Shown here in pieces: positions 1 through 64,000 of a stretch of DNA of 64,000 nt. The stretch is taken from positions 1 to 64,000 of the forward strand of contig NZ_JAHZTC010000010.1 of the NCBI RefSeq assembly GCF_019599265.1, given 5' to 3'. The first letter of the stretch is position 1. The number at the start of each line of letters is the position of its first letter. A program made the position numbers and the translations under genes. Source of the stretch: Pontibacter sp. HSC-14F20 (GTDB lineage: Bacteria > Bacteroidota > Bacteroidia > Cytophagales > Hymenobacteraceae). Below the pieces are notes generated by a model, which had not been told where the DNA came from, ran no database searches, and saw only the letters and a program-made list of their open reading frames with translations.

Positions 1-66
1 TTTGCTCACATAATGCTCCAGGTACTCTTTATCTGATTCACTCAATTTTATTTCTATCTTCTCCAT
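1..66 (-). CDS. N-terminal fragment of a protein, possibly an IS630-type transposase
   Basis: The first 22 codons of a minus-strand gene run off the left edge. The peptide begins MEKIEIKLSESDKEYLEHYV. A very strong Shine-Dalgarno (GGAGGA) lies 5 bases upstream of the ATG, which is unusual here because most genes in the window have none. The opening (a short beta strand, then LSESDxxYLE) resembles the helix-turn-helix start of IS630-family transposases in Bacteroidota, but 22 residues cannot decide this. Gene presence is likely; identity is a guess. Confidence 0.45.
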   Translation of the reverse strand, partial: MEKIEIKLSESDKEYLEHYVSK

Positions 67-309
67 GCTTCCTCCTGCTTTTAAGGAAGAAACGCAATCA
101 TTACCTACTAAGTTGACTGTGTACTAGGACTTCTGTAGTTAGAAAGGTATGCATTGTGCCGGTTGCAGGACAGGTATAAAAAATAAGTGCCAGCCGTTAA
201 TTTCCAGGTATAGAGCCCTGTATGTGGGCACATTTTGATGTATATTGTGAGGTTGGCAACCTGCTGCCGAATTGATTTCAGCACAATTGTTTAAGCATTA
301 TACCACTAT

Positions 310-2565
310 ATGACACACCTCCCCAATCTGGTCTTGGACCTCGGGTTGATACTTGGTGCAGCCGGCATCATGACGCTTGTCTTTAAGAAGCTGAAACAAC
401 CGTTGGTGCTGGGCTATATTATTGCAGGTTTGTTAGTCGGGCCGCATGTTAAGCTGTTCCCCACGATTGTGGATATAGAGAACATCAATGTGTGGGCAGA
501 GATTGGGGTGATCTTTCTGTTATTTACCTTGGGGCTGGAGTTCAGCTTTAAAAAACTCGTGAAAGTAGGCGGGGCCTCTTCCATCATGGCGGGTGTAGAG
601 GTTGTGGTTATGCTCCTGCTGGGTTACCTCACAGGCAAACTGCTCGGCTGGAGCACCATGGACAGCGTGTTCCTGGGTGGTATACTTTCCATCTCCTCCA
701 CCACTATCATCATCCGGGCCTTCGACGAGCTGGGCGTAAAGTCAAAGCGCTTTGCCGGGCTGGTGTTTGGGGTGCTGATTGTGGAAGACCTGGTGGCCAT
801 CCTGCTGATGGTGCTGCTTTCGACGCTGGCAGTAAGCCAGCAGTTTGCCGGTACCGAAATGCTGCAGGCCGTACTAAAACTCGCCTTTTTTCTGGCGGTG
901 TGGTTTCTGGCGGGCATCTTTCTTATACCTACACTGCTCCGGAGGGCAAGCAAACTGATGAACGATGAGACGCTTCTGATTGTCTCTATCGCGCTTTGCT
1001 TCCTGATGGTGATTCTGGCCGCGCAAGTGGGTTTCTCGCCGGCGCTGGGTGCCTTTATTATGGGTTCTATCCTGGCCGAAACCACCAAGGCCGAGAAGAT
1101 TGAGCACCTGGTGATGTCTGTAAAGGACCTGTTTGGCGCAATTTTCTTTGTATCGGTGGGCATCCTGATCAACCCGCAGATGATTGTTGAGTATGCCGGG
1201 CCCATTGCTTTGATTACGGTCGTGACGCTGGTAGGCAAGATGGTGAGCATCTCGGCTGGTGGCCTCATGGCGGGGCAGGGACTCAAAACATCCATTCAGT
1301 CAGGTATGAGCGTGTCGCAAATCGGTGAGTTTTCGTTCATCATTGCCACCCTCGGACTTACGCTTAAAGTAACCAGCGACTTTTTATACCCTGTGGCAGT
1401 GGCGGTTTCGGCAATCACGACCTTCACCACACCCTACATGATCAAAATGTCGGAGCCACTTTACAGGTCAGTAGAGCGACTGCTACCCGAAAAATGGAAA
1501 AAGTCGCTAGACGAATATAGCTCCGGCGCCCAGACCATCAGCACGGCCAGCGACTGGAAAATACTGCTGCGCTCCTATGTGCTCAACATGGGGGTGTCGT
1601 CGGTTGTGCTGGTGGCCACTGTGCTGCTGGCAGAGAACTACCTGTACCCATTCATGTCCGAAGAAGTGATGCCGGGCATTTGGGGAGGTATAGCCACGGT
1701 TACCATTACGCTGATCGCCATGTCGCCCTTCCTGTGGGCGATGGCTGTGTACCATCCGCAGAAAGAAGCGCAGGGCCGTATCTGGGCTAACCGCAATTAC
1801 CGCAGCCTGATTATTGTGCTGGAGTTTACGCGCGTAGGTATAGCCATTCTCTTTATCGGCTTCATGCTCAACCAGGTGCTGTCGGCGCAGGTGGCTCTTA
1901 TCATAAGTTTGTGTATTATTGTCCTGCTGGTGCTTTTGTCCAGGAGAATTCAGAACTTTTACAGCCGGATCGTAGCCCGGTTTATGTCGAACCTGAACGC
2001 CCGCGAGATCGCAGCTGCCAGCAGCATGACCCATACCTTGGTGCCTTGGGACGCACACCTGACCAGCTTTGAATTGGCGCCAAATGCTGTAGTAGTAGGC
2101 AAAAGCATGCTGGAGCTGCAGATACGCGAAAAATATGGTGTAAATGTGGCCGTTATAGAGCGGGAAGGTCGCACGATTATGGCTCCAACGCGCAACGAAC
2201 GTATATTTCCGGGCGATAAAATTTACATATTCGGCACAGACGAGCAGATCGCAGCTTTCAGAGATTTTATAAATGAGGAAGTTATACCTGAGCAAAATGA
2301 AACAACAAGGGAGGAGATCGGGCTGGAAATGCTGGTTTTGTCGTCGGACTCACTATTGCTTGGAAAAACCGTGCGGCAATCGGGTGTGCGTGAGAAAACC
2401 AAAGGCCTGATCGTAGGTATAGAAAAGCATGGAGAGCGTATACTCAACCCGGATACTGAACTGGTACTGGAGGAAGGCGACATTCTTTGGATTGTAGGAA
2501 GCCCGTGGCGTATAAAACAACTGGAGGCCGCCCGACAAAATTCAGTTAAAGTAAATAAGAAGTAA
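310..2565 (+). CDS. CPA2 family cation:proton antiporter with two C-terminal TrkA_C domains
   Basis: A 751-residue inner-membrane protein. Residues about 8-390 form the Na+/H+ exchanger fold with some 12 hydrophobic segments; the LFTLGLEF and QVGFSPALGAFIMGSILAE motifs are those of KefB/KefC-type transporters. A second membrane block spans about 420-550. Two cytosolic TrkA_C (RCK_C) modules follow at about 585-655 and 670-745, each with the VxGKxxxEL...GDxI pattern. There is no TrkA_N nucleotide-binding domain, so it is not a classical Kef protein. Family knowledge suggests exchange of K+ or Na+ for protons, gated by a ligand at the RCK_C domains. An MscS channel starts 48 bases downstream on the same strand, which suggests a joint role in ion and turgor balance. 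The exact ion is unknown. Confidence 0.9.
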   Translation: MTHLPNLVLDLGLILGAAGIMTLVFKKLKQPLVLGYIIAGLLVGPHVKLFPTIVDIENINVWAEIGVIFLLFTLGLEFSFKKLVKVGGASSIMAGVEVVVMLLLGYLTGKLLGWSTMDSVFLGGILSISSTTIIIRAFDELGVKSKRFAGLVFGVLIVEDLVAILLMVLLSTLAVSQQFAGTEMLQAVLKLAFFLAVWFLAGIFLIPTLLRRASKLMNDETLLIVSIALCFLMVILAAQVGFSPALGAFIMGSILAETTKAEKIEHLVMSVKDLFGAIFFVSVGILINPQMIVEYAGPIALITVVTLVGKMVSISAGGLMAGQGLKTSIQSGMSVSQIGEFSFIIATLGLTLKVTSDFLYPVAVAVSAITTFTTPYMIKMSEPLYRSVERLLPEKWKKSLDEYSSGAQTISTASDWKILLRSYVLNMGVSSVVLVATVLLAENYLYPFMSEEVMPGIWGGIATVTITLIAMSPFLWAMAVYHPQKEAQGRIWANRNYRSLIIVLEFTRVGIAILFIGFMLNQVLSAQVALIISLCIIVLLVLLSRRIQNFYSRIVARFMSNLNAREIAAASSMTHTLVPWDAHLTSFELAPNAVVVGKSMLELQIREKYGVNVAVIEREGRTIMAPTRNERIFPGDKIYIFGTDEQIAAFRDFINEEVIPEQNETTREEIGLEMLVLSSDSLLLGKTVRQSGVREKTKGLIVGIEKHGERILNPDTELVLEEGDILWIVGSPWRIKQLEAARQNSVKVNKK

Positions 2566-2613
2566 GCCCCGATTGTGAGTGCCACAATTTTCTGTTGATT
2601 AAAATAAAGCTGC

Positions 2614-3555
2614 ATGCAAAAAATTGAATACTGGATAGAAAGAAATTTTCATCTGTCGGCTCAGATACAGGAAAACATTGTAAAGTCGGTGGTGGCTTTG
2701 CTGGTGCTCTGGATTATCAGTCGGGTGCTGTTGCGGCTGGCCTCGCGGCAGCAAACGGACACACGCAAGCTATACCAGTGGAAGAAAACGACCAACTATG
2801 TGGTTACGGGGCTTGGAATTATCTTTCTGGCCAACATCTGGTTCGAAGGTTTCAAGTCCATCACTACGTTTCTGGGTATCTTCTCAGTCGGTCTGGTAGT
2901 GGTGCTCCGCGACCCTATTCTGAACATGATGGGCTGGGTGTTCCTGATCTGGAAGCGTCCTTTTAAAGTAGGCGACCGCATTAAGATAGGCCTCTATACC
3001 GGCGACGTGATCGATATTGCCTTCTTCCAGTTCACCATTAATGAGCTCGGTGAGTGGGTAGACTCCGAACAGGCGACAGGTCGTGTAGTGCACATTCCCA
3101 ACAGCCAGGTGTTCACGCAGGGGCAGATCAACTACAACTACGGTTTCCCATTTCTGTGGCACGAGCTGCAGGTGCGCATCACTTTTGAAAGCAACTGGCA
3201 AAAAGCCAAAGTTATTTTGCAGGAAATAGCCCTGCGACACTCCGAGCGGCTAAACGGAGAACAGGAACAGCGCGTGCGCATTGAGGCCCAGCAGCACCTG
3301 ATTTTTTACCGGAGCTTCGAGCCAAGAGTGTTTGCCAAAGTGAGAGAGAACGGCGTTCAGCTTACGGTGCGCTACCTCTGTAACCTCAACGGTCGTCGCG
3401 AAAGCGAAGCTAAGATTTGGGAAGATGTACTGACGGAGTTCCTAGCTTCTCCGGACATTCGTTTTGCTTACCCAACCACCCGCTTTTACAGCGCCGCCGA
3501 AGGCCAGGAGAGCGAAATGCAGCATATGGAGAGTGGCAGAAGAGGTATGGAGTAA
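2614..3555 (+). CDS. mechanosensitive ion channel, MscS family
   Basis: A 313-residue protein with membrane segments near residues 20-45, 65-85 and 88-110, followed by the MscS pore/beta-domain signature: VGLVVVLRDPILNMMGWVFL, then KRPFKVGDRIKIG with VVHIPNSQVF. This is a small-conductance mechanosensitive channel that relieves turgor on hypo-osmotic shock. The soluble C-terminus carries an alpha/beta vestibule domain. It lies 48 bases after the antiporter with no terminator between, so the two are probably co-transcribed. A strong hairpin terminator starts 2 bases after its stop codon. Confidence 0.9.
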   Translation: MQKIEYWIERNFHLSAQIQENIVKSVVALLVLWIISRVLLRLASRQQTDTRKLYQWKKTTNYVVTGLGIIFLANIWFEGFKSITTFLGIFSVGLVVVLRDPILNMMGWVFLIWKRPFKVGDRIKIGLYTGDVIDIAFFQFTINELGEWVDSEQATGRVVHIPNSQVFTQGQINYNYGFPFLWHELQVRITFESNWQKAKVILQEIALRHSERLNGEQEQRVRIEAQQHLIFYRSFEPRVFAKVRENGVQLTVRYLCNLNGRRESEAKIWEDVLTEFLASPDIRFAYPTTRFYSAAEGQESEMQHMESGRRGME

Positions 3556-3556
3556 A

Positions 3557-8024: not shown

Positions 8025-9290
8025 CTAAAAATAGAACCCGAACAACAGCGATACCGACCTGGTATCTGAGTCAAGGGCGGTGTTGATTTTATTGACAGCG
8101 TTGTGCTTATGCAGGTCGAGGCCCAATTCGTAACGAGCCTCCAGTGACAGGCGGTGCTTGTTGATATGCAGGTATGAGCCGGCGCCTAGCATCAGCCCCT
8201 GCTGCATTTTGCTGAGGAACTCCGCATTGTCGCGATTTCTTTCTGTTGGCGTGCTACTTTGTGTGCTTCTGACATACTGGATATGCCTGAAGTCGCGCTT
8301 ATTGAAGAAATTGAGGAAACCACCGGCGTTCACGAAAGGCTGGAGGGTTTTTCCTGCGAAGTCGTAGCGTAGGGCCGTCGTAAGTTTTAAAGCAGAAAGC
8401 TCAATCTCAATCTCGTTATCATAGTAGGATTCAAACCATATATAGCTGGGGTCTGACCGATAACTGTTGCTAAAGTAACGACCTTCCACCAGTATAGAGG
8501 CACGCTCGTTGATGCGGGGTGAATTAAGTAGCAAGGCAAGGCCAAAAGTTGGGTGAGTATTGGTGTTGAATTCAGCATGTTCCAGAGGCAGGTACCTCTC
8601 ATCAGTAGCCGAGAAATTAAGAGAGGTATGGCTGAGGGCGCCTACAAAGCCTGGTCTGATGGCAAACCATTTCTTGGATACCTTAAAAATAATTTGTTCA
8701 TCGGCTCTGCCAACGCATTTATTGTACTCTCTTACCAGGTCCACCAGGTTTTTTTCGGCTAGTTTTACACGCTCAATCTTGTTGAACATCGCAAAGCAGT
8801 CCTGCAAAAGTGTGTTTAAAGTACGGACGTAGTGGTTTATATCTCTTTGAGCTGTCACACCATAAGTGTTAACATAGGTTTCCTTGGTGATATAAAGCTT
8901 GTGCAGTTTATCAGGATTATCATTCTTTTCGATAAAGAACGTATTTTTATAAACAAAAAGGCTGGCAGTTCCCCGAACCAGTTCCTGCATAAACACATAC
9001 TCCGCAGCCAGGGTATCAGCGTGATCCAGTGTGCGGGTGCGGTAGTTTCTGTCGCCCGGGAAACCATAGCCTGAGATCTCATTGGCAGTGTAAGAGGTCG
9101 TAATCGACTGGTTGTCTCTTTTGAAGCCTACTGTTTTGCCGAGCGCGTCGGTGCGGTAACTCACGTGGCCTTGCAGAGTATCGCCCTGCGGCATCACAAC
9201 ATAACCCGGCCTGTAATCGCTTTGTGCTGCCGCTGGTGCTGAAAGTAAGGCGCTGATGCACAGCATAATAAGTTTGTATAGGTTTTTCAT
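8025..9290 (-). CDS. secreted outer-membrane beta-barrel protein of unknown function
   Basis: 421 residues with a signal peptide (MKNLYKLIMLCISALLSAPA, cleavage after AAAQ). The N-terminal part, beginning YRPGYVVMPQGDTLQGHVSY, is a beta-rich domain seen in many Bacteroidota surface proteins that pair it with a C-terminal porin-like barrel. From about residue 205 (RPGFVGALSHTSLNF) the sequence alternates hydrophobic and polar residues and ends in a hydrophobic-aromatic strand (SVSLLFGFYF), typical of an outer-membrane barrel terminus. Residues 150-190 look helical. Function is unknown. It is transcribed alone, convergent with kmo. Confidence 0.75.
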   Translation of the reverse strand: MKNLYKLIMLCISALLSAPAAAQSDYRPGYVVMPQGDTLQGHVSYRTDALGKTVGFKRDNQSITTSYTANEISGYGFPGDRNYRTRTLDHADTLAAEYVFMQELVRGTASLFVYKNTFFIEKNDNPDKLHKLYITKETYVNTYGVTAQRDINHYVRTLNTLLQDCFAMFNKIERVKLAEKNLVDLVREYNKCVGRADEQIIFKVSKKWFAIRPGFVGALSHTSLNFSATDERYLPLEHAEFNTNTHPTFGLALLLNSPRINERASILVEGRYFSNSYRSDPSYIWFESYYDNEIEIELSALKLTTALRYDFAGKTLQPFVNAGGFLNFFNKRDFRHIQYVRSTQSSTPTERNRDNAEFLSKMQQGLMLGAGSYLHINKHRLSLEARYELGLDLHKHNAVNKINTALDSDTRSVSLLFGFYF

Positions 9291-9572
9291 AGGTACAGCT
9301 AGTTCCTAAAACAAGATTAGATAATAAAGATAGTAGGATATACCTATATAGGCTACCAGCCTCTCATAAAATATTATTGAAATCTCAACAAGGACGTCCT
9401 TTGTTATACAAATAGCCAATAATAGTCTATGGCAGGATATTTGGATACCCGGAGCGGGAGGCAACTCAAAAGCTTAAAACTATTTTTCTAAAATAATGTA
9501 TAGTTTGAGTGGTAATCGAGAGAACCTGCCTTTCTTTGGTCATCTTATTAAAAATTATTAACCCCGAATCTT

Positions 9573-10064
9573 ATGCATATTCTCCATAAACTGAAGGTCA
9601 CTGCTGTGGCAGGGCTTGTTGTCTGTTTGGTATCCGGCAGTGGTAGCGCTTTGGCGCAGCAGGCCACTCCTCAAAAAACACCGCAGCAAACGCAAACTAT
9701 TTCTGATCAGGACATCAAGCTTTTTGTAGATGCCAGCACACGTCTGATGGAGCTGCAGCAGGAAAGCGAAAAAGCTATGCTGGTGATTCTGGAAGAAGAG
9801 AAACTAAGTGTAGATAAGTTTAACGCCCTGGCGCAGGCGCACCAGCAGCAGAAACTGGCCGAAGCAGAAGGCACAACCGCCGAAAAAGCCGCTTTTAACA
9901 AGGCGATCGGTCGTATGATGGAAATGCAACCCGACATTGAGAAGAACATGCAGTCGGCCATCCAGAAAGACGGTATGACAGTGGAGCGCTACGAGCAGAT
10001 CATGCTGGCCTACCAACAGGATCCCGCCGTACAGGCTAAAATTCAGAAATTGATGGGTTTGTAA
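9573..10064 (+). CDS. DUF4168 domain secreted protein
   Basis: 163 residues: a signal peptide ending in ALAQQ at about residue 30, then a helical DUF4168 domain made of two related halves (DQDIKLFVDASTRLMELQQE and FNKAIGRMMEMQPDIEKNMQ). The second half carries the family's MTVERYEQIMLAYQQDPAVQ end motif. DUF4168 proteins are small periplasmic or envelope proteins of unknown function. The gene is monocistronic, with 282 bases of upstream DNA that hold no gene and a strong bidirectional terminator directly after. Confidence 0.85.
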   Translation: MHILHKLKVTAVAGLVVCLVSGSGSALAQQATPQKTPQQTQTISDQDIKLFVDASTRLMELQQESEKAMLVILEEEKLSVDKFNALAQAHQQQKLAEAEGTTAEKAAFNKAIGRMMEMQPDIEKNMQSAIQKDGMTVERYEQIMLAYQQDPAVQAKIQKLMGL

Positions 10065-10085
10065 ACGAAGCCCCCTTTATAAAGC

Positions 10086-11718: not shown

Positions 11719-11747
11719 AAAGCCCGGCTAAGGTATAGCCGGGCTTT
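11719..11747 (-). terminator. terminator of asnS with the dispersed motif in its loop
   Basis: Twelve-bp arms (11719-11730 and 11736-11747) with a 5-base loop AGGTA. The U-tract on the minus strand comes from the A-rich stretch at 11713-11721. An AGGTATAG copy overlaps the loop and 3' arm. Confidence 0.85.
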
Positions 11748-11770
11748 TGTTGTATCAGGTATAGTTGCTG

Positions 11771-13210: not shown

Positions 13211-13425
13211 GTTATTTCTAGTAGCGTAATGTGTCTGAACAAATTATAAGTTAAGGTATAGTTTTCGGCCCACCTGGCAAGGTATAAAAAGATGCCCGGC
13301 CACCCCTAAATCAGCCACCCTAACCTGCTTAGGGAAAGTCCTGTAACAGGCAGACTGGCCATGGTTGGCGCCTTGGAGCAGTACCTTTTCCAATAATCCC
13401 TCAAAGTAACGATATTTTAACCTTT

Positions 13426-19644: not shown

Positions 19645-19647
19645 AAC

Positions 19648-19701: not shown

Positions 19702-22596
<2,895 letters not shown>

Positions 22597-23776: not shown

Positions 23777-26455
23777 ATGAGAAGACATTATTTCTTGCTT
23801 GCCATCCTCATGCTGCTGGCAGGCTATACCTGGGCGCAGGACACCGGGCAGCTGCGCATCACCGCCAGTTACCAGGGGCAGTCCTTAGAAGCAGTGCTGC
23901 ATGACTTGCAGCAGAAGCACAAGCTGCGGTTATTTTATCAGCCGGAATGGGTAGAAGGAGTACAAATTTCCCAGACCTTTAACCAGGAACCACTCTCCAA
24001 TGCTTTGCAAAAGCTTCTGGATAAAGCCCGCCTTTCTTTTGTGCTCTATGATGATCGCACTGTGGTGCTGGTGCCTCAATCTGCGGCCTCCCTCTTTCGC
24101 ACAGACACGGTGCCATCTGGGGAAGCTGCTGCAGGCCAGGCCGCTGAGCGCATCGTGACCCTGAGCGGGCAGGTACGCAATGCCAAAACAGGCGAGCCCT
24201 TCATAGGAGCCACTGTGCTGCTCGTGGAGACTGGGAAAGGTACCGTTGCCGACGAGCAGGGTAGGTATACCTTGTCGGCGCCGGCCGGTAACTATACCTT
24301 GCGGGTGCGGGCCATCGGTATGGTGGAGGACCAGCGGCGGGTGAGCCTGCAGCAAAGCCGCACCATGCATGTCGAGCTGTTTGAAGTAAGTAACCAATTG
24401 CGGGAAGTGGAGGTGTCCGCCAAAGCGCCTGACCATAATGTGGAAAGCCTCGAGATGGGGGTGGCCCGCCTGAATATACAGGAGGTACGTAAGATGCCTA
24501 ACTTTTTGGGAGAGGTGGATGTACTGCGCAGCATCATTTCATTGCCGGGCGTGACCACTGTTGGCGAGGGCGCCAGTGGCTTCAACGTGCGCGGCGGCAG
24601 CATCGACCAGAACCTAGTTCTGCAGGACCAAGCGCCGCTTTTCAGTGCCTCCCACCTGTTCGGTTTCTTCTCGGTTTTCAACCCTGATATGGTGCAGGAT
24701 GTCACTTTGTACCGTGGTGGTATACCTGCCAGGTATGGCGGGCGCATCTCGTCGGTGCTGGACGTGGAGCTGAAAGAAGGCAACAAAAAGGCTCCTATTC
24801 TGAGTGGAGGTATCGGTTTGCTGGCCAGCCGCCTGATGGTAGAAGCGCCGCTGCTGAAAGACAAAGCTTCTTTTGTGCTCGGAGCTCGTGGTGCCTACCC
24901 CGGGCTGGTGCTGCGCTACGTGCCGGATAAGTCCGTGCGCAACAGCGACGGTTATTTCTATGACTTCAACGCTAAGGTCGACTATACTATCAGCCCCAAA
25001 GACCAGTTGATGATGTCCGGCTACCTGAGCCGCGACGGCTTTCGGTTTGGAGCCGATACCACCTATACCTGGGGCACTGCCACCGGCACCGCCCGCTGGA
25101 ACCATACCTTCAACGACAAACTGCTGTCAAGCGTAACCGGCGTCATTGGTGATTATGACTATGGCGTGGAGGCCGAAACAGAACCCTACAGCTATACCCT
25201 CGCTTCGGAGATCAAATACAAGCAGATCAGGGCAGACCTTAATTATGAGCCCTCCGTGCGGCATAAGGTGGGCTTGGGTGCCTCGTCCTCCTGGTATGAA
25301 TTTAATCCCGGCACGCTTACACCGGGTTCGGAGCTGTCGAGTTTGCTGCCGGTCAACATGCCGCGGGAGCGTTCCGTTGAAGCTGCGCTATACCTGGACC
25401 ATGAGTACACGCTCAGCCCTAAGGTATCGGTTAGCTACGGCCTGCGCTACTCCTCATACTTTAACCTGGGGCCAGGCGATGTATACGTGTACGATCCGGA
25501 GTCGCCACGCAGGGAGGCAACGATCATCGATACGCTGAGCTACAGCAATGGCGGCGTGATACAGCAGTATAGTAATTTTGAGCCGCGTGCTTCACTTAAA
25601 ATAAGCCTGGGGGAGAATAGCTCTGTGAAGCTGGGCTACAACCGCATGGCGCAGTACATTCACCTGATCTCCAATACAACAGCTGCCTCTCCGGTGGATA
25701 TCTGGAAAACCAGCAACCCGAACCTGCGTCCGCAGATCGGCGATCAGGTGGCGCTGGGCTTTTTCAAAAACCTGCAGGACAATACCATTGAGCTCTCAGC
25801 GGAGGCCTATTACAAGAAACTGCACGACCTGGTAGAGTACAAAGACGGCGCCCGGCTGCTGCTCAACAGCACCCTTGATGCCGACCTGCTGCCAGGGGAA
25901 GGTAAAGCTTACGGGTTAGAGCTGATGATGCGCCGCAAAGGCAAAAAACTGACGGGCTGGGCAAGCTATACCTACTCCAGGTCGCAGCGTCGCGTGAACG
26001 GTCCTACTCCCGAAGAACGCATTAACAACGGCAACTTTTTCCCGGCCAATTTCGACAAGCCGCATGACCTTACCCTGGTCGTGAATCAGCAGCTGACCAG
26101 GCTCATCAGCATGTCAGCGAACTTCACTTACAGCACCGGCAGGCCTATTACATATCCGGAGTCGGTTGGTTACATCGATGGGCTGCTGATGGTGAACTAC
26201 AGCGACCGCAACCAGCACCGCATACCTGATTACCACCGCCTGGACCTAGCCTTTGTGATTGACGGTACCAACAAGCGGAACGCAAACTGGGTGAGCAGCT
26301 GGGCCTTCTCGGTGTATAATGTTTACGGGCGGAAGAATCCTTACTCGGTGTTCTTCAAGCCAGCTTACGGCGGCACTATTCCGCAGGCTTATCGATTGTC
26401 GGTAATAGGTTCAGCGGTGCCGGCAATTACTTACAATTTCAAGATCACGAGATGA
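23777..26455 (+). CDS. TonB-dependent outer-membrane receptor with STN and carboxypeptidase-like domains
   Basis: 892 residues from the ATG at 23777, which starts a clear signal peptide (FLLAILMLLAGYTWAQ). An STN domain (about 30-100, LEAVLHDLQQKHKLRLFYQP) is followed by a CarboxypepD_reg-like beta-sandwich (about 130-215, PFIGATVLLVETGKGTVADE). The TonB plug is at about 230-340 (VDVLRSIISLPGVTTVGEGA, FNVRGGSIDQNLVLQD), then a 22-strand barrel. STN in Bacteroidota receptors may signal to an anti-sigma factor, but none is adjacent. It heads a three-gene cassette: the DUF4249 gene starts 71 bases after its stop. The substrate is unknown. Confidence 0.93.
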   Translation: MRRHYFLLAILMLLAGYTWAQDTGQLRITASYQGQSLEAVLHDLQQKHKLRLFYQPEWVEGVQISQTFNQEPLSNALQKLLDKARLSFVLYDDRTVVLVPQSAASLFRTDTVPSGEAAAGQAAERIVTLSGQVRNAKTGEPFIGATVLLVETGKGTVADEQGRYTLSAPAGNYTLRVRAIGMVEDQRRVSLQQSRTMHVELFEVSNQLREVEVSAKAPDHNVESLEMGVARLNIQEVRKMPNFLGEVDVLRSIISLPGVTTVGEGASGFNVRGGSIDQNLVLQDQAPLFSASHLFGFFSVFNPDMVQDVTLYRGGIPARYGGRISSVLDVELKEGNKKAPILSGGIGLLASRLMVEAPLLKDKASFVLGARGAYPGLVLRYVPDKSVRNSDGYFYDFNAKVDYTISPKDQLMMSGYLSRDGFRFGADTTYTWGTATGTARWNHTFNDKLLSSVTGVIGDYDYGVEAETEPYSYTLASEIKYKQIRADLNYEPSVRHKVGLGASSSWYEFNPGTLTPGSELSSLLPVNMPRERSVEAALYLDHEYTLSPKVSVSYGLRYSSYFNLGPGDVYVYDPESPRREATIIDTLSYSNGGVIQQYSNFEPRASLKISLGENSSVKLGYNRMAQYIHLISNTTAASPVDIWKTSNPNLRPQIGDQVALGFFKNLQDNTIELSAEAYYKKLHDLVEYKDGARLLLNSTLDADLLPGEGKAYGLELMMRRKGKKLTGWASYTYSRSQRRVNGPTPEERINNGNFFPANFDKPHDLTLVVNQQLTRLISMSANFTYSTGRPITYPESVGYIDGLLMVNYSDRNQHRIPDYHRLDLAFVIDGTNKRNANWVSSWAFSVYNVYGRKNPYSVFFKPAYGGTIPQAYRLSVIGSAVPAITYNFKITR

Positions 26456-27605: not shown

Positions 27606-29702
27606 ATGATGATCAAACCCGGAATAATAAATAGCAGGAAACTGCGGGTCGTGTGCTGGTTGCTGGTAGCTCCCATGCTTAGCTTGCCGGTATTTGCGCA
27701 GCAGGAGCAGGTTGCCAAAGTAGCCGCCGCCCAGGTACAGCTGCAGCTCTCCGATGAGCAGGTTCAGCTGGTGCACAATCAGCCTTGGTACATGGCAGGT
27801 GAGCGACTCTGGTACAGTGCCGCTGTGCGCAAAAACTCCACTGCTCCCGCGAGCCGGGTGCTTTATGTAGAGCTGCTGGACGCGAAAGGCACTGCCCTAA
27901 TCAGCCAGCGACTTGTTATCGAAGACGGAAAAGCGCAGGGAGATTTTCTGTTGCCTAAAGATATGCCCTCGGGCAGCTATACGCTGCAGGCTGCCACTAA
28001 CTGGATGAGGAACTTCAGTGCGCAGCAACACTGGCAACAGCAGCTCACCATTGTAAACCCAAACGAAGTCAGGGCGCTGCAGGCACAGCCGGCAAAGACT
28101 AAACCACTACAAGTGCGCTTCCAACCGGAGTCTGGCAGATGGCCGGCAGGGGTACCTACCCAAATAGTAGCAACCGTGACCAACGCTGCAGGTATAGGTA
28201 TAGCCGCTCAAGGTATAGTAACTGATACGGCCGGGCAAACCATCACCACCTTCAAAAGCGACGAAACAGGTATAGCAACTTTCAGCCTGACGGCCACAGA
28301 AGAGCAGGATCTGGTCGCGAAGCTGCAGGCAGAAGGCTATGCACCGCAACAGGTGAGTCTTCCGAAACCAAAGCAGCAAGGTATAGCGCTATCAGTCGGA
28401 AAAGTAAGCACCGCAGGTATACAGGTAAACGTGCAAAGCCAACCGGGGACGGGGCATGTGCTGGTGGCAGCATCGGGAGGAACTGTGTACTTCTCGCAGC
28501 ATATTACCGGAACTGGGCAGTTCACGGTGCCATGGCTTAATGCCGCGCAACCCGGATCTCGCCTGCTGCTGCTCAACACGGGCGGTCTGGTAGAAGCAGA
28601 GCAGCAGGTTCGTCTACCTCATTCAACAGGTATAGAAGTGCAAACAGACAGCAAGCAGTATGGCACCCGCCAGCAAGTCACTGTTACCGTAACGGGGCTG
28701 CCGCACTCTGTTTGGCTTGCAGCCTCTGTAGCGGAGCGCCTTGCAGCACTTCAGCAGCCTGCTGGTTTTGTCATTGCAAACAACACAGAACTAGGATATG
28801 AAGTGGACCGGGAGCTTTGGGATGCCATTGCAAAAAATGAAACAGAAGCCCGGTATGGCCGTGAGTCTTTGGTCGAGCCGATGCGGCAGGAAGGTATAAA
28901 GGCACCTTTTCAGCAGGATATTTTCGCCAGGAAAACAGACACAGCCTTTGTGCAGGCACTGCCACCACATGTAATAAGCGCTGCGCAAAAACACTATACC
29001 CGCAGCAACATCCATAACATTTATGGTTTGACAGAACCGCATGCCACTGCCCCGCTGCCACGTTTGCCAGCCGACCGGGTGTTTAAGCTGGACGAGTACG
29101 TTGCTTTTCAGGATGTAGAGGAGGCTATACGGGAGGCAACTACCAACCTGCGTATGCTCAAAAAGAAGGGCAAACAAACCGTGCGGCTGCTTTATGTAGC
29201 TCCCGGAACCAAGCGCATGATGAAAGAGGAGCCGCTATACCTGCTGGACGGTGTCATGCTGGAAAATATGGACGAGATCATGGCACTCGACCTGAACGAT
29301 ATCGCCTCTATTGAGATTGCGTGGTCAGAGGAGAAACTGTACGCCGGCAACCTGGGACGTCTGGTCGACAATGGTATGTTTGCCATCTACACCAAAAGTG
29401 GTGAGGCCCGTGAACGACTCAAAGAAAAGGGTATGCCCGTACTGTATGAACAGTACAACCTGCCCCGGAACTTCGTAGTGCCAACTGCTATTTCCGGCGA
29501 TGCCGCACAGGCCCAGCTTCCAGACTTCCGCCAACAATTGTTCTGGCAGCCATACCTGCAGGCCGGAGCCGACGGCAGTGCTACGTTCACGTTCTATACC
29601 TCCGACGAAACCGGCGTATTTGAGATACAGGTACAGGGGCAAACTGCAGAGGGTATACCTGTAAGCGGAAGCTCATCATTTGAAGTAAAGCTGCTAAACT
29701 AG
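27606..29702 (+). CDS. secreted macroglobulin-like (MG2-type) protein, third gene of the TonB cassette
   Basis: 698 residues with a signal peptide ending at VFAQQ (about residue 33). Residues 50-145 are an MG2-like beta-sandwich (YMAGERLWYSAAVRKNSTAP, LLPKDMPSGSYTLQAATNWM), as in alpha-2-macroglobulins, but no thioester motif is visible and the protein is far shorter than a true macroglobulin. A segment near 535-600 (LYLLDGVMLENMDEIMALDL, then DIASIEIAWSEEKLYAGNLG) resembles a TonB-plug-like module, and the C-terminus is another beta domain. The start is probably the ATG at 27606; a TTG at 27591 overlaps the DUF4249 stop. Seven AGGTATA motif copies lie within 28190-28634, all but one overlap read as Gly-Ile. 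Confidence 0.75.
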   Translation: MMIKPGIINSRKLRVVCWLLVAPMLSLPVFAQQEQVAKVAAAQVQLQLSDEQVQLVHNQPWYMAGERLWYSAAVRKNSTAPASRVLYVELLDAKGTALISQRLVIEDGKAQGDFLLPKDMPSGSYTLQAATNWMRNFSAQQHWQQQLTIVNPNEVRALQAQPAKTKPLQVRFQPESGRWPAGVPTQIVATVTNAAGIGIAAQGIVTDTAGQTITTFKSDETGIATFSLTATEEQDLVAKLQAEGYAPQQVSLPKPKQQGIALSVGKVSTAGIQVNVQSQPGTGHVLVAASGGTVYFSQHITGTGQFTVPWLNAAQPGSRLLLLNTGGLVEAEQQVRLPHSTGIEVQTDSKQYGTRQQVTVTVTGLPHSVWLAASVAERLAALQQPAGFVIANNTELGYEVDRELWDAIAKNETEARYGRESLVEPMRQEGIKAPFQQDIFARKTDTAFVQALPPHVISAAQKHYTRSNIHNIYGLTEPHATAPLPRLPADRVFKLDEYVAFQDVEEAIREATTNLRMLKKKGKQTVRLLYVAPGTKRMMKEEPLYLLDGVMLENMDEIMALDLNDIASIEIAWSEEKLYAGNLGRLVDNGMFAIYTKSGEARERLKEKGMPVLYEQYNLPRNFVVPTAISGDAAQAQLPDFRQQLFWQPYLQAGADGSATFTFYTSDETGVFEIQVQGQTAEGIPVSGSSSFEVKLLN
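28190..28634 (+). repeat. dense cluster of the dispersed AGGTATA motif inside a gene
   Basis: AGGTATA starts at 28190, 28196, 28211, 28268, 28379, 28415 and 28628. All are on the same strand and frame, so each gives Gly-Ile with the rare codon ATA. By chance fewer than 0.06 copies would be expected in 445 bases counting both strands. Confidence 0.85.
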
Positions 29703-37787: not shown

Positions 37788-39458
37788 ATGAGCAACGAAA
37801 CCATTATTTTCTCTATGGCCGGGGTCAGCAAGATCTACCCCCCACAGAAGCAAGTACTTAAAAATATCTATCTCTCATTTTTCTACGGCGCCAAAATAGG
37901 CGTGTTGGGCCTTAACGGTTCCGGTAAGTCGAGCCTGCTCAAGATCATTGCCGGTGTGGACAAAGAGATTCGTGGCGAAGTAGTTTGGTCGCCGGGCTAC
38001 AGTGTAGGCTATCTGGAGCAGGAGCCGCAACTGGACCCGACCAAAACGGTGCGCGAAGTGGTGGAAGAAGGTGTGAGCGAAGTGGTTGGCTTGTTGAAGG
38101 AGTTCGACGAGATCAACATGAAGTTCGCCGAGGAGATGACCGATGATGAGATGAACAAACTCATCGAGCGGCAAGGTATCGTGCAGGAAAAACTGGATCA
38201 CCACAACGCTTGGGAACTGGACAACCGCCTGGAGCGCGCCATGGATGCCCTGCGCACACCGCCGGAAGATGCTCTGATCGGCAACTTGTCGGGTGGTGAG
38301 AAGCGCCGCGTGGCCCTGTGCCGCCTGCTGCTGCAGGAACCAGACGTACTGTTGCTGGATGAACCTACCAACCACCTCGACGCTGAGTCTGTGGACTGGT
38401 TGGAGCAGCACTTGCAGCACTACAAGGGCACTGTAATCGCTGTAACTCACGACCGTTACTTCCTCGACAATGTGGCTGGCTGGATTCTGGAACTGGATCG
38501 TGGCGAAGGTATACCTTGGAAAGGTAACTACAGCAGCTGGCTGGAGCAGAAAGCTGCTCGTTTGGCAAAAGAAGAGAAAACAGAAAGCAAGCGTCAGAAA
38601 ACCCTGCAGCGTGAGTTGGAGTGGGTGCGTATGGCGCCGAAAGCCCGTCATGCCAAGTCAAAGGCGCGTATCAGTCAGTACGATAAGCTGGCCAGCGAAG
38701 AGGCCTCTAAGAAGGAAGAAAAACTGGAGCTCTTTATACCTGATGGGCCACGCCTGGGCGCGCAGGTGATTGAGGCGCATAACATCAGCAAAGCCTATGG
38801 CGATAAGTTGTTGTTCGAGAACCTGAACTTTTCCCTGCCACAAGGTGGCATTGTGGGCATCATTGGTCCGAACGGTGCTGGTAAAACTACTTTGTTTAAG
38901 CTGATAACCGGTCAGGAAAAGCCCGATGCAGGTGATTTTACGGTTGGTTCAACGGTAGAGATATCTTACGTTGACCAGGAGCATACCAATCTGGACCCAA
39001 GCAAATCGGTGTTTGAAGTGATCTCAGGAGGTACGGAGCATATGATGATGGCCGGACGGCAGGTAAACTCCCGTGCTTATGTGAGCAAGTTTAACTTCTC
39101 AGGCGGCGATCAGGAAAAGAAAGTAGAGAAGCTGTCGGGTGGTGAGCGCAACCGCGTGCACCTGGCCATGACGCTGAAAGAAGGCGGTAACCTGCTGCTG
39201 CTAGACGAACCGACCAACGACCTGGATGTAAACGCCATTCGTGCACTGGAAGACGCGCTGGAGAACTTTGCCGGTTGTGCCGTAATTATCTCGCACGACC
39301 GCTGGTTCCTCGACCGTATTTGTACACACATTCTGGCTTTTGAAGGCGACTCGCAGGTATACTGGTTTGAGGGTAACTACACAGATTATGAAGAGAATAA
39401 GAAGAAGCGTTTAGGTGATGTAGAGCCGAAACGTATACGCTATAAGAAGCTGGTATAG
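37788..39458 (+). CDS. ettA: energy-dependent translational throttle protein (ABC-F)
   Basis: 556 residues; two ABC ATPase domains and no membrane part. Walker A motifs are [12 protein letters not shown] and [12 protein letters not shown]. Signatures are [17 protein letters not shown] and [17 protein letters not shown]; each is followed by an LLLDEPTN Walker B. The linker between domains holds the charged P-site tRNA interaction motif. Opening residues ([20 protein letters not shown]) and C-terminal [15 protein letters not shown] match EttA, which binds the ribosome E site and gates early elongation by ADP/ATP ratio. The ATG at 37788 is chosen by family length. The stop codon TAG lies in a GGTATAG motif. 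Confidence 0.95.
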
Positions 39459-47620: not shown

Positions 47621-48301
47621 TATACCTGATTTTTGCCTTTGCTGCCTGTTACTTGGTGGCTCGCGCTTAAAAATACAAAGTTAAGGGATTTAATCGGGAA
47701 TTGTAGTTGTCAGGCCTTTCCTTCTCTGAATCAGGATTTAAAAAATAATAGAATTCTCGTGCACGATTAACATCCCCCTTCAAAGAGGAACTTCTGCTAC
47801 TACCAATTCTCCAGGTATAGCATCGTAGCAAATACCACTGGCAGGTATAGCAAGATTAACTTGCACGCTGACAATGAAACAGATCACTTTGTCAGGTGCG
47901 CCTTTACGACACTCCACTGTTGGGAGTGAAGGGGTCCCCCTGTCAAGAGCGTTCAGCGAGTGGGGGTAGGGGCCCTCGATTTTTTTGTCAAGACAAAAAG
48001 TAGGGCCCGCCCGGCCAGGGCGAGCTACAAAGCAATACAGGTTGCTATACCTGCAATAGCAGGGCCCGCTATACCTCCAACAGCCGCCACTACGCAGCTA
48101 TATTAAAACCCTACTACAGCATTTTTTTATACTAAAATGGAATAAAACCCGACCAAAGCTTTGTTCAAAGAATAACAAGCTATACAGCATGAAGGTATAC
48201 CTATAAAGAAGCCTTGCATAGAGAAGCGTGAATATTTATCTCCATAAAGCTGCACAAAAGCGCCCGCTTAGCTTTATATTTAACCGTTTTTAGAGATCGA
48301 G
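47621..48301. other. 680-bp gene-free region rich in the dispersed motif
   Basis: Divergent space between ruvX and the S41 protease gene. No frame has protein character. It holds six full copies of AGGTATA/TATACCT, plus one overlapping on the opposite strand: starts at 47621, 47813, 47843, 48046, 48070, and a perfect palindrome AGGTATACCT at 48193-48202. A GC-rich stretch (47930-48030, with several GGGCCC) may be a decayed gene or repeat. Confidence 0.6.
47676..47683 (-). promoter_or_regulatory. -7 promoter box (TAACTTTG) of ruvX-def
   Basis: An exact TAnnTTTG match on the minus strand, 56 bases before the ruvX start. No -33 element seen. Confidence 0.4.
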
Positions 48302-60405: not shown

Positions 60406-60471
60406 CGGCTTATGCGGGGCAAAGCGAAGTTATACCTTATATTTTGGCAGGCGCTATACCTGGAATCTCGT

Positions 60472-60642: not shown

Positions 60643-60688
60643 TGATGGAGTTTTGCAGTTGGGAATCGTTCAAAGAAGTCGCGCTGTA

Positions 60689-60814: not shown

Positions 60815-60820
60815 AACGGA

Positions 60821-60934
60821 TTAGCGTGTTAAGTTAAAAATAAGTTCGCCAATACTGCTTCCGACCTGTTCTCCTGCTATGAAAACTATAATAAGCGCTA
60901 TTATGATTGTAACTATTCTAACTGATTTTTTCAT
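60821..60934 (-). CDS. small membrane protein, 37 aa (paralogue of its downstream neighbour)
   Basis: A 37-residue frame: MKKSVR head, helix IVTIIIALIIVFIAG, then EQVGSSIGELIFNLTR. It starts 12 bases after the stop of the DUF2007 gene and ends 6 bases before the next small frame, which supports an operon of real genes. The shared G-x-S-I/M-G-E motif is the best conserved part. Function unknown. Confidence 0.65.
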   Translation of the reverse strand: MKKSVRIVTIIIALIIVFIAGEQVGSSIGELIFNLTR

Positions 60935-60946
60935 AAGTCAGATATG

Positions 60947-61204
60947 CTAGTCTTCGTTGTCAAAAGCGGCGTCATTAAAACCTTCCAGGAGTCTTTTGGC
61001 TTCCTCTTCATCCTGCCCGGAAATAATCAGTTTCACTGGATTGAAGCCGCCCGAAGCAACCTGCCAGGGTGCAATGCTGCCCATGTGCTCGTTTTGCATG
61101 AACACGTAAATGCTGTGGTTCTCAAGCATATTTTTGATGACGGCCGCCCGGTGGAAGTCGCCGGAGAAGATAACGATGGGTTTGGTTTGATCTGAAGGAG
61201 TCAT
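60947..61204 (-). CDS. DUF2007 putative signal-transducing protein
   Basis: 85 residues from the ATG at 61204: KPIVIFSGDFHRAAVIKNML, ENHSIYVFMQNEHMGSIAPW, then VKLIISGQDEEEAKRLLEGF. DUF2007 is a small ferredoxin-like fold, related to P-II-like domains, with unknown role. Longer frames upstream add residues with no family match. It heads a tight minus-strand group with the small membrane proteins at 60821, 60689 and perhaps 60472. Confidence 0.85.
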   Translation of the reverse strand: MTPSDQTKPIVIFSGDFHRAAVIKNMLENHSIYVFMQNEHMGSIAPWQVASGGFNPVKLIISGQDEEEAKRLLEGFNDAAFDNED

Positions 61205-61271
61205 GTTTTCAAAGCTGTTGCTTTCTAAAGCTAGTGAATTACAATCAGACTTACATGGCCGATGCAGAAAA

Positions 61272-61300
61272 AAAGGCGAAGCCGCTACAGCCTCGCCTTT
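61272..61300 (-). terminator. terminator of rocD
   Basis: Eight-bp arms (61272-61279 and 61293-61300) with an A-run at 61268-61274 giving the minus-strand U-tract. Confidence 0.75.
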
Positions 61301-61323
61301 CATGCGTTTCAGGTATACCTGAC

Positions 61324-62565
61324 TTAGAATTTCATGATCACCTTTTCGATGATATCGCAACACTCGTGCAGTTGCTCCTCGGTCATCACAAGCGGCGGTG
61401 CGAAACGGATTATGTCGCCGTGCGTTGGTTTGGCCAACAGGCCATTCTCCTTCAGTTCTACGCACACATCCCAGGCAGTGCGGCCGTCAGCTGCCGGCTG
61501 AATCACAATAGCATTGAGCAATCCGCGGCCACGTACCAGTGTTACCACTTCGGGGCGTTTTACCATCAGTTGGTTCATGCGGTCCCGGAAGATCTCCCCC
61601 ATTTTATAAGCATTCTCTACCAGGTTCTCATCTTTTATCACCTCCAAAGCAGCAATAGCCACAGCGGCAGCCATCGGGTTGCCACCAAAAGTAGAACCGT
61701 GTTCACCCGGCTGGATGCACAGCATAATATCGTCGTCGGCCAGAACACAAGACACCGGCAGCACACCACCCGAAAGTGCTTTGCCCAGTATCAGAATGTC
61801 GGCTTTCACGTCGTCGTAGTACGTAGCCAGTAGCTTACCCGTGCGGGCTATACCTGTCTGAATCTCATCGGCCATCAGTAGCACATTATACTCTTTGCAA
61901 AGCGCATGCGCCTTGGATAAGTAGCCGTCCTGCGGCACTACCACACCCGCTTCGCCCTGAATCGGCTCCACCAGGAAACCGCACACATTCGGGTTTTCTT
62001 TCAGGGCTGTTTCCAGTGCTTCCAGATCATTGTAAGGAATTACTTTAAAGCCCGGCATGTACGGACCAAAGCCTTTGGTAGAGTCCGGGTCGGTAGAAAA
62101 AGAGATGATGCCCGTAGTGCGGCCATGGAAGTTGCGCTCTACCACAATGATCTCGGCGTTATGCGAGGCGATGCCCTTTTTCAGATAACCCCACTTGCGG
62201 GCCAGTTTGATAGCGGTCTCTACGGCCTCGGCACCCGAGTTCATGTAAAGCGCCTTGTCGTAGCCAAACAGCTCGCAGATGTACTTCTCGGCTATACCTA
62301 ACTTGTCGTTGTAAAAGGCGCGGGAAGTAAGTGTGAGCTGTTTTGCCTGTTCGATCAGGGCGTTGATGATGTGCGGGTGGCAGTGTCCCTGGTTCACGGC
62401 GCTGTAGGCCGACAGGAAATCATAATAGCGTTTGCCTTCCACGTCCCACAGGTATACGCCTTCGCCTTTATTGAGTACCACCGGCAGTGGATGGTAGTTG
62501 TGGGCGCCGTATTTTTCTTCGGTTTCGATGGCCTGTTGGCTGGAAGTAATGGATAGCGTGCTCAT
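61324..62565 (-). CDS. rocD: ornithine--oxo-acid transaminase
   Basis: 413 residues, PLP-dependent class III aminotransferase. Converts ornithine and 2-oxoglutarate to glutamate semialdehyde and glutamate in arginine/proline exchange. The family start [20 protein letters not shown], the [20 protein letters not shown] loop, [16 protein letters not shown] with the PLP-binding Asp, and [14 protein letters not shown] with the Schiff-base lysine separate it from argD. Full length. No arginase or proline gene adjacent. Confidence 0.95.
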
Positions 62566-62716
62566 AGTTGATGTGTTAAAAAAGCTGTTTTCTGAAACTC
62601 GGGACAGGGCTGCGCCACAGGCTGCAACTCCGAACCTATATCTACAGGGTTTCTGATGATTTGTTGTAAATATAGCGATAAACAGCCTGAATTATACCTT
62701 TGCCCGGAAACTAGGC

Positions 62717-63031
62717 CTACGCGCGCCTTGTTTGCCCTTTCAGGCATTGTCTGAACACAGTGTAGAAGCCCTCGGGATCATACTCAGCGTAAATGTTGGT
62801 CATGATGCCGAACTGGTTGTCATCGGTGCGGAAGCCGTATACCTCCTCTTCGCCATTCTGCGCAGAAGGCGAAGGCACGACATGCCGCTCGATCAAGGTA
62901 AGTTGGGCAGGGGAGATGGACTTGCTCAGTTCAGAGCAGTATACCTGCCGGTGCTGTATGCTGAAGGTATTCACGAAGCCGCGGGAGCGCATGACGGATA
63001 CGGCCTCACTCAAATTGTTGAAATGGGACAT
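62717..63031 (-). CDS. hypothetical protein, 104 aa
   Basis: 104 residues beginning MSHFNNLSEAVSVMRSRGFV; later DDNQFGIMTNIYAEYDPEGF and a basic end. The 'LSEAxxxxRxRGF' start with a C-terminal acidic beta strand resembles a small Bacteroidota family sometimes mislabelled phosphoribosylpyrophosphate synthetase, but the match is weak. No known function. Single gene. Confidence 0.65.
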   Translation of the reverse strand: MSHFNNLSEAVSVMRSRGFVNTFSIQHRQVYCSELSKSISPAQLTLIERHVVPSPSAQNGEEEVYGFRTDDNQFGIMTNIYAEYDPEGFYTVFRQCLKGQTRRA

Positions 63032-63176
63032 AGTTTATATGGTTTAGGTATTGAATGCGCGGCAAGGAACAATATCTTGGTTAACGGGTATTGTGAGGAA
63101 GGTATAGAGAGAAGCACAGTTATTTGGTGAGCGTCCTGATTTTGCCGATATTTGGCGTTCAAAAAGAAGTATAGCC

Positions 63177-63350
63177 GTGAGCGATCTGAAAGAAGGAGAG
63201 GATTTTTACTTTGAGCGGGGACTGATGGTGCTGACGGCCAAGTACCTGCTCAAGCGTGGCTACTGTTGCTGCAACGCCTGCCGCAACTGCCCTTATGGCT
63301 TCACTAAAAAGAAGAAAGAAGCCGGAGAGAAAGGTTCGGACAAGGTATAG
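63177..63350 (+). CDS. DUF5522 small cysteine-rich protein
   Basis: 57 residues from a GTG start: GEDFYFERGLMVLTAKYLLK, then RGYCCCNACRNCPYGFTKKK. The RGYCC-x(2)-C-R-x-C-PY block is the DUF5522 hallmark, probably a metal site. Role unknown. The stop codon TAG is the end of an AGGTATAG motif copy. It lies 134 bases before rpmB. Confidence 0.8.
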   Translation: MSDLKEGEDFYFERGLMVLTAKYLLKRGYCCCNACRNCPYGFTKKKKEAGEKGSDKV

Positions 63351-63416
63351 GCGATGCAGTTTAAAGGCCTTTGTAGCTGTTTTAGAGCATGTTTTGCTAA
63401 AATTATCTGCTATGCC

Positions 63417-63448
63417 TTTGACATTGTGTTTCTTTTTATAGATATTTG
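63417..63448 (+). promoter_or_regulatory. probable promoter of rpmB (TTTG-N20-GATATTTG)
   Basis: TTTG at 63417-63420, then 20 bases, then GATATTTG at 63441-63448, one mismatch from TAnnTTTG. Transcription would begin near 63455, about 30 bases before the start codon. Confidence 0.5.
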
Positions 63449-63483
63449 CACCCCTATTGAAATAATTTAGAAGAAAATACAAG

Positions 63484-63723
63484 ATGGCACGAGTTTGCGA
63501 TTTAACCGGAAAGAGAGTACAAGTAGGAAATAACGTTTCTCACGCTAACAATAAGACAAAGCGTAAGTTCTATCCGAACCTTCAGAAGAAGCGTTTCTAC
63601 ATCCCTGAGGAAGATGCTTGGGTAACCCTTAAAGTTTCTACTTCAGCATTGAGAACAATCAACAAAAACGGTATTTCTGCCGTTCTGAAGAAAGCAGTAG
63701 AGCAAGGCTTCATTATGTACTAA
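63484..63723 (+). CDS. rpmB: 50S ribosomal protein L28
   Basis: 79 residues: [20 protein letters not shown], then [20 protein letters not shown] and [20 protein letters not shown]. Normal length. In many Bacteroidota rpmB is followed by rpmG and a DUF4295 gene; here it is followed at once by a peptidase gene whose ATG overlaps its TAA stop by one base. Confidence 0.96.
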
Positions 63724-64000
63724 TGGCAGCCTTCCGGCTGTGCGTACTGTTATGCTGGCTGTCCTTTACGGCAGTAGCGCAACCGCACGCAGGCTCAGGA
63801 AAGCCATCTGATACTTTAGATAAAGAGTTTCATCGGCAACGGAGAGAGGTCCTGCGGCAACAGCTGCCCCCTCGCTCCGTTGCCGTTCTTTTTGCCAGTC
63901 CCGTGCGCAACCGCGCCAACGACGTGGACTACTACTACCATCCCGACCCTGACTTCTACTACCTGACCGGCTATACCGAGCCGAGTGCGGTGCTGCTGCT
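63723..64000 (+). CDS. N-terminal part of a secreted Xaa-Pro aminopeptidase
   Basis: The first 92 codons, cut by the right edge. A signal peptide (LCVLLCWLSFTAVAQ) is followed by the aminopeptidase P N-terminal domain: FHRQRREVLRQQLPPRSVAV, then LFASPVRNRANDVDYYYHPD and FYYLTGYTEPSAVLLL. The 'NDVDYxYHPDxDFYYLTGYxEP' stretch is characteristic. The metal-binding pita-bread domain lies outside the window. Start ATG overlaps the rpmB stop (TAATG), so expression may be coupled. Confidence 0.88.
   Translation, partial: MAAFRLCVLLCWLSFTAVAQPHAGSGKPSDTLDKEFHRQRREVLRQQLPPRSVAVLFASPVRNRANDVDYYYHPDPDFYYLTGYTEPSAVLL

Follow-up and report, generated by a model that had tools for sequence, protein, structure and literature searches.

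AGGTATA, a densely iterated motif of Pontibacter chromosomes with dialects across the genus: a candidate label for self DNA

Introduction

What keeps a single seven-base word recurring throughout a bacterial chromosome? The question is raised by 64,000 nucleotides of DNA from Pontibacter sp. HSC-14F20 (the window), in which AGGTATA is found again and again on both strands. The word had been picked out in an earlier, sequence-only reading of the window, which took it for a genome-scale motif. Counts in the window, in its genome and in relatives bear the motif out, and it is probably maintained by a protein that reads it sequence-specifically. Our leading interpretation, offered tentatively, is that the motif labels the whole chromosome as self and that a DNA-binding protein of Pontibacter reads this label, most likely when DNA is taken up in natural transformation. 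The dialects in which the label is written across the genus are the new part of the finding. A literature search by title and start of abstract returned no description of the motif; most subscription journals and bioRxiv lay outside its scope, and for some listings it covered the top entries.

Motif density and form

AGGTATA was counted 151 times in the window (71 plus strand, 80 minus strand), and 100 dinucleotide shuffles averaged 4.82 copies and never exceeded 11. The first 8 kb contained exactly 24 copies, the figure that the sequence-only reading had estimated by eye. The top 9-mer was CAGGTATAG, present at 46 sites (20 plus, 26 minus) where a first-order model predicts 0.3. Across the window's own genome (G000, 4.64 Mb in 97 contigs; other G numbers denote relatives), AGGTATA occurred 9,303 times (4,796 + 4,507), or once per 500 bases, and the reversed word 344 times (185 + 159), an excess of about 27-fold; the totals for CAGGTATAG and its reversed word were 2,518 (1,308 + 1,210) and 20 (10 + 10). 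The base preceding AGGTATA was C in 52% of copies and the base following it G in 58%, with a following T disfavoured (3%). Neither AGGTATA nor CAGGTATAG is palindromic, and overlapping copies form the palindrome AGGTATACCT at four sites. The features of the window were as follows.

1..64000, both strands (71 plus, 80 minus): dispersed array of 151 AGGTATA copies, 46 of them the full CAGGTATAG
205..213, plus strand: CAGGTATAG, an intergenic instance of the preferred form
28190..28217, plus strand: three AGGTATA copies head-to-tail within one gene (starts 28190, 28196 and 28211)
24263..24272, no strand: AGGTATACCT, perfect palindrome made of two overlapping copies
38507..38516, no strand: AGGTATACCT, palindromic overlap inside a gene
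48193..48202, no strand: AGGTATACCT, palindromic overlap, intergenic
61311..61320, no strand: AGGTATACCT, palindromic overlap, intergenic
11731..11763, plus strand: intergenic head-to-tail pair, spacing 26 bp
13254..13286, plus strand: intergenic head-to-tail pair, spacing 26 bp
47813..47849, plus strand: intergenic head-to-tail pair, spacing 30 bp
60431..60461, minus strand: intergenic head-to-tail pair, spacing 24 bp
19702..22596, minus strand: uvrA, the marker on which the genus tree and the orthologous stretches are based

The UvrA encoded in the window shared 98% identity with its counterpart in Pontibacter ramchanderi, which places the organism in Pontibacter. Relative to the 47 predicted genes of the window, AGGTATA was about twice as dense between genes (40 copies, 3.92 per kb) as within them (111 copies, 2.06 per kb), and intergenic copies lay upstream of, downstream of and between genes in any arrangement. 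Open reading frames of at least 150 amino acids held 103 copies, 50 on the gene strand (phases 10/6/34) and 53 on the opposite strand (19/14/20), so that all six frames were used. Copies in both orientations, in several frames and in intergenic DNA had also been described from the letters alone. In bins of 500-4,000 bases the variance-to-mean ratio was 1.0-1.3, near Poisson.

The claimed over-representation was thus borne out: the count lay far above expectation, and the excess extended beyond genes and beyond one codon frame. An origin in chance, in codon usage or in faulty assembly can be dismissed with near certainty, being refuted by the counts (151 against 4.8 expected in the window), by the presence of AGGTATA in 12 assemblies where the reversed word was far rarer, and by the use of every reading frame. 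Words containing CTAG were strongly scarce in the window (for example, CCTAG 13 times against 104.8 expected), and neither the Rfam nor the tRNA scan of the window had a match.

Dialects across Pontibacter

Forty genomes of the genus were screened in 20-kb stretches surrounding uvrA; all 40 loci entered the k-mer count, and gene alignments took fewer of them, where synteny permitted. The top words differed by species: AAGTATA led in the majority, one group had AACTATA, and some had mixtures. AGGTATA, AAGTATA and AACTATA are successive single-base steps with a common TATA end. In whole-genome counts of 50 genomes, with a dialect called at 0.75 copies per kb, 12 genomes used AGGTATA, 19 AAGTATA and 4 AACTATA, and 4 (G046, G048, G061 and G063) used both of the latter; 39 of the 50 therefore carried at least one dialect, and 11 fell below the threshold for all three. 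G061 held 7,552 copies of AAGTATA and 8,118 of AACTATA.

On the uvrA tree, which represents one gene and has several weakly supported nodes, the AGGTATA users were monophyletic (support 1.0) and AAGTATA was scattered across much of the remainder. AAGTATA looks older than the other two words, and AACTATA appears to have arisen within the AAGTATA group that also holds the four two-dialect genomes. The clade of G007, G058 and G002 was nested among AAGTATA users and had low counts (G007 was intermediate, at 0.59 per kb), which looks like motif loss. G023 may be another loss, as placed on weak nodes, and the early branches G041, G055, G056, G024 and G047 may have lacked the motif from the start.

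Motif-masked one-base variants of AGGTATA were enriched at position 1 (C 2.3-fold, G 3.4-fold), position 2 (C 2.1-fold), position 3 (C 2.9-fold) and position 7 (G 3.0-fold). Variants within the TAT core at positions 4-6 showed no enrichment (0.34- to 1.35-fold). For the other two dialects the change of position 7 to G was enriched 5.2- and 3.9-fold and changes at positions 1-3 up to 2.3- and 3.7-fold; at positions 4-6 the values reached at most 1.5- and 1.75-fold. A constant TAT core with variable flanks is what would be expected of the target of a binding protein.

Further words were seen outside these three. Among the 11 genomes below the threshold, G057 had a candidate further dialect in TATATAG (87 against 13.7 expected in 100 kb; L183-L186, L150), and G059 had candidates in GGTATGG (51 against 11.5) and GGGTATA (36 against 7.6) in 60 kb (L149, L191, L192). 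Elsewhere in the family, ACCTAGG, with the palindromic core CCTAGG, was iterated in Solirubrum puertoriconensis (L014) and in G066 (L251) and G075 (L252), which belong to one other genus of Hymenobacteraceae, at 24-35 copies per 20-23 kb against 2.5-4.5 expected. Three Hymenobacter loci (L006, L010 and L013) were enriched in GGGGTAG, GGGGGGC and GGCTAGC, and most other Hymenobacter stretches had no equally strong word.

Conservation, orientation and spacing of sites

At orthologous genes in nine relatives, 50-73% of the AGGTATA sites of the window's genome were identical, compared with 18-38% for any 7-mer. Synonymous conservation was assessed on codons lying wholly within a copy and encoding the same amino acid in the relative, with the expectation taken from the same codons elsewhere. 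The same codon was kept in 147 of 164 cases in G016 (110.9 expected), 409 of 490 in G039, G062 and G045 (277.7 expected), 264 of 328 in G009 and G014 (166.6 expected) and 129 of 169 in G003 and G015 (75.0 expected). Four decoy words gave 11/11 (11.0 expected), 7/7 (4.5), 3/7 (3.4) and 38/53 (31.5). The use of six frames and both strands and the retention of synonymous codons support a force that acts on DNA and not on protein, as the sequence-only reading had proposed.

On terminal branches the motif was lost at 94 of 543 sites, against 617 of 1,806 for 189 control anagrams, which were not codon-matched. A presence/absence rule scored 36 gains and 15 losses as clean and left 66 cases ambiguous. 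When AGGTATA sites were compared with AAGTATA genomes (3,090 comparisons, which are non-independent), 234 read AAGTATA and 266 AGGTATA; between dialects, most sites were at new places. In genomes of other dialects, the words standing at AGGTATA sites departed from the motif at various positions and through various kinds of base change.

Strand preference was judged against GC skew, which is no more than a proxy for the replication strand, in two single-contig relatives (eight 20-kb stretches each). Copies showed no preference for the G-rich strand, at 79/84 in G021 and 232/233 in G054. Pooled counts from the uvrA region were 288:324 for the AGGTATA set including the window, 430:295 for AAGTATA and 171:142 for AACTATA. 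The verdict rests on G021 and G054, since the pooled copies are mostly orthologous, come from one locus and are non-independent. The absence of bias by GC skew speaks against a Chi site and against an FtsK-orienting polar sequence (KOPS), in agreement with the sequence-only reading on the latter point. AACTATA in G054 was over-dispersed, with a variance-to-mean ratio of 1.8-2.7.

At distances of 13-60 bp, copies favoured the same orientation in the orthologous AACTATA (47:27) and AAGTATA (113:52) stretches; G021 showed no such excess (3:6). At 201-500 bp the ratio was near 1 in the AGGTATA set (129:128) and in G054 (284:265); in the orthologous AAGTATA set it was 263:176, with one locus counted many times. 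Head-to-tail clustering possibly reflects cooperative or directional reading. Terminator hairpins were disfavoured as an origin of the copies: besides the 3-bp palindromic overlap, close pairs were mostly head-to-tail.

Transformation genes and plasmids

The gene comEC was present in 150 of 150 genomes of the family. Among the 50 of the genus it had a full-length open frame in 47; dprA was intact in 48 and the comEA-like gene in 49. In G000, comEC was broken by frame changes and stops, lacked an internal part and adjoined a DDE transposase (L261, 6945-10005); dprA was broken as well (L307), and the comEA-like gene was intact. In the single-contig genome G021 all three genes were broken (L300, L308, L309). 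The comEC of G017 had a single frame break near residue 546 (L289), with dprA and the comEA-like gene intact, and this break may be recent or a sequencing error. The only two genomes with a broken dprA, G000 and G021, were also broken in comEC. This joint decay suggests that the three genes act together in a single pathway, that of natural transformation, which would be kept in the remaining genomes.

Plasmids from three complete genomes were examined, those of P. kalidii (whole), P. actiniarum (120 of 204 kb) and P. akesuensis (100 of 116 kb), 294 kb in total. They held 88 copies of AAGTATA (20, 45 and 23), where genome density would predict about 354 and base composition about 42; plasmid density was thus about a quarter of genome density. 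As judged on these three plasmids, the motif is scarce on mobile elements.

What may maintain the motif

Under the interpretation we favour, the motif would be a self label of the whole chromosome, and its reader a sequence-specific DNA-binding protein of Pontibacter that acts most likely at the uptake step of natural transformation. Fragments in the local dialect would be preferentially taken up and recombined, and by this preference copies would accumulate and persist on the chromosome and not on plasmids. Were the specificity of the reader to shift, the genome would adapt through numerous point substitutions, the majority of them at new sites. The reader would be something other than a type IV pilin. 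We infer all three of these elements, namely the presence of the reader, its role in uptake and its non-type-IV-pilin nature. The fuller proposal is that DNA self-recognition in transformation evolved in Pontibacter separately from that of Neisseriaceae and Pasteurellaceae, with three dialects at the least and perhaps five and a surface reader that is not a type IV pilin; it is advanced a little more guardedly still.

A number of observations weigh against a role in uptake. Under a strict ancestral filter, gains at one-off sites (8 of 430) equalled the control rate (792 of 46,863), although this filter works against gains because it requires identical non-motif words in the relatives; seven further gains came from more distant words. 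Uptake predicts no preference of orientation between neighbours, yet pairs 13-60 bp apart favoured the same orientation in the AGGTATA stretches (36:16, where the few control words leaned likewise, 15:7) and in G054 (78:37, control words 13:19). The presence of competence genes did not track the motif: the clade of G007, G058 and G002 had low density with these genes intact, and the motif persisted in G000 and G021 with the genes broken. From the few disabling changes per gene, we infer that these two losses are too recent for visible decay of the motif. In its uvrA region G021 showed no relaxation of conservation, keeping 13 of the 25 sites it shared (G006 7/21, G040 9/20, G008 12/20, G043 12/20). 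The ATPase of type IV pili and type II secretion (PF00437) was not found in any of the 50 genomes, in a search that did not extend to pilins; matches were short and weak (about 40-65 of 370 positions), three lay just above the cut-off, and the one of these inspected was a helicase-type AAA protein. Because this ATPase was not found, no receptor of the ComP type is expected. The receptors known or proposed for uptake sequences are pilins (PMC12616744 for part of this). DUF5689, a family from Riemerella transformation, was patchy (22 of 50 genomes) and absent from G000, and was rejected as the motif reader. No receptor for the motif was identified in this analysis.

Decay of the motif in G021 had been considered as support for uptake. 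Its AAGTATA count was 5,476, against 8,482-10,082 in G004, G006, G008, G040 and G043, and in its eight random stretches the intergenic enrichment was absent (1.26 against 0.97 per kb). This argument was dropped because genomes with intact genes were equally low (G019, G001 and G011 had densities similar to or below that of G021), because G021 groups with G040 and the low-count G007, G058 and G002 (support 0.776), and because its uvrA stretch (4.79 against 1.26 per kb) and its retention of sites were normal.

Ranked below the self label, and rather unlikely in our judgement, is a chromosome-maintenance motif resembling the highly iterated palindrome HIP1, whose sites would be used in place by a protein of the nucleoid, of mismatch repair or linked to methylation. 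Each site would then bring a small benefit or be kept by biased repair, and dialects would follow changes in the protein. Persistence in the two competence-broken genomes and low density in a clade with intact competence genes fit this explanation, as does the enrichment of one-base variants of AGGTATA in the flanks (position 1, C at position 2, position 3 and position 7) and not in the TAT core, since cyanobacterial HIP1 has alternate forms in some genomes and one-base variants that concentrate at its ends (PMC4390886). The Pontibacter motif is however non-palindromic, and the three plasmids were poor in it, whereas repair acting on all DNA of the cell should mark old plasmids. Moreover, no single lesion or methylated base fits, because the words found at AGGTATA sites in other dialects differ at several positions and by varied changes. 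The same variety of changes tells against a functionless by-product of mutation or modification, such as very-short-patch repair or context-dependent mutation, and a mismatch-repair (Vsr-like) origin was disfavoured on this ground. Genome-wide enrichment, an intergenic density twice the genic one and a strict gain test without excess gains would suit a by-product; conserved synonymous codons, a loss rate half that of control words and scarcity on plasmids make it very improbable.

Chi sites are short, directional, enriched on chromosomes and species-specific, as the Pontibacter motif is, although the excess over the reversed word, roughly 27-fold, is larger than is known for Chi. A Chi-like site would halt the AddAB nuclease and direct recombination, with the dialect set by AddB. 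We regard this as improbable, less so than a by-product. An AddB-like nuclease (PDDEXK_1, about 970-1,020 amino acids) was present in all 50 genomes, the AddAB/RecBCD machinery being judged on AddB alone; the motif is directional, with head-to-tail clusters within 60 bp in most sets tested, and is chromosomal, not plasmid-borne. On the other hand, there was no bias against GC skew as a proxy for the leading strand, and the 11 genomes below threshold had AddB just as the others did. In up to 20 genomes, columns specific to the AGGTATA clade numbered 6 of 520 variable columns in AddB, 7 of 571 in ComEC and 0 of 230 in UvrA; in neither AddB nor ComEC did any residue point to the dialect, and both were set aside as candidates for tracking it.

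AddB also showed, in its C-terminal third, a dense block specific to the AACTATA group (G054, G017 and G042; partly G046 and G061), which is one event on one branch. Two of the 50 genomes had a second adjacent PDDEXK_1 pair, at C54:158071-161480 in G000 (1,106 and 958 amino acids) and at C13:33024-36438 in G044 (1,136 and 959 amino acids), which is AddAB-like by size.

Comparison with known systems

In our analysis the pattern appears closest to the dialects of the DNA uptake sequence (DUS) of Neisseriaceae, down to the occurrence of two dialects in one genome and of relatives free of the motif. According to the part of PMC3630211 consulted, DUS occur in thousands of copies, their dialects arise by small changes around a fixed core and follow phylogeny, some related genomes have no dialect, and one Neisseriaceae genome holds two dialects in near-equal numbers. 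The Pontibacter motif differs in that its short-range pairs are head-to-tail, whereas intergenic uptake sequences are reported as inverted repeats (PMC2346458, consulted in part). It is also shorter and AT-rich with a TATA end, where DUS has a CTG core; it belongs to Bacteroidota, in genomes where the type IV pilus ATPase was not found, and is known here from sequence alone. Because type IV pilus machinery was not found as far as tested, and a role in uptake is predicted rather than assayed, the motif was not classed as a DUS.

The uptake signal sequence (USS) of Pasteurellaceae spans about nine bases and occurs about once per 1-2 kb, like the Pontibacter motif. It is likewise non-palindromic and lies both in genes and in intergenic DNA. 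It has no general orientation bias (PMC2346458). Its sequence is unrelated, and phylum, pilus ATPase, AT-rich word, uptake evidence and head-to-tail clustering differ as they do for DUS. HIP1 and the alternate HIPs of cyanobacteria share iteration throughout the genome, with alternates in some genomes (PMC4390886, in the same part). HIPs are GC-rich palindromes associated with methyltransferases, however, and the Pontibacter word is not a palindrome. The likeness to uptake sequences and to HIP1 that the sequence-only reading drew stands as a resemblance of pattern.

Within Bacteroidota, competence of Riemerella needs ComEC, DprA, a helix-hairpin-helix protein and unfamiliar parts (PMC8459023, from the portion consulted), and R. 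columbina prefers its own DNA (PMC7965970, likewise). The top repeats shown there differ from the Pontibacter motif in being A-rich, with 9-mers at about 0.5-0.6 per kb (PMC7965970), and DUF5689, a Riemerella part, is patchy in Pontibacter.

Implications

Even if AGGTATA is not an uptake sequence, it is a very dense iterated motif for which no described function was found, and the dialects, together with the apparent loss lineages (G002, G007 and G058; G023), offer a route to the reader. If it is one, it would be the third independent case, from a phylum in which little is known of how DNA is taken up, and to our knowledge it would have no precedent outside Proteobacteria or among systems that do without type IV pili. 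The series of 50 genomes with its mixed intermediates would in that event show how a genome is rewritten when the specificity of the reader changes.

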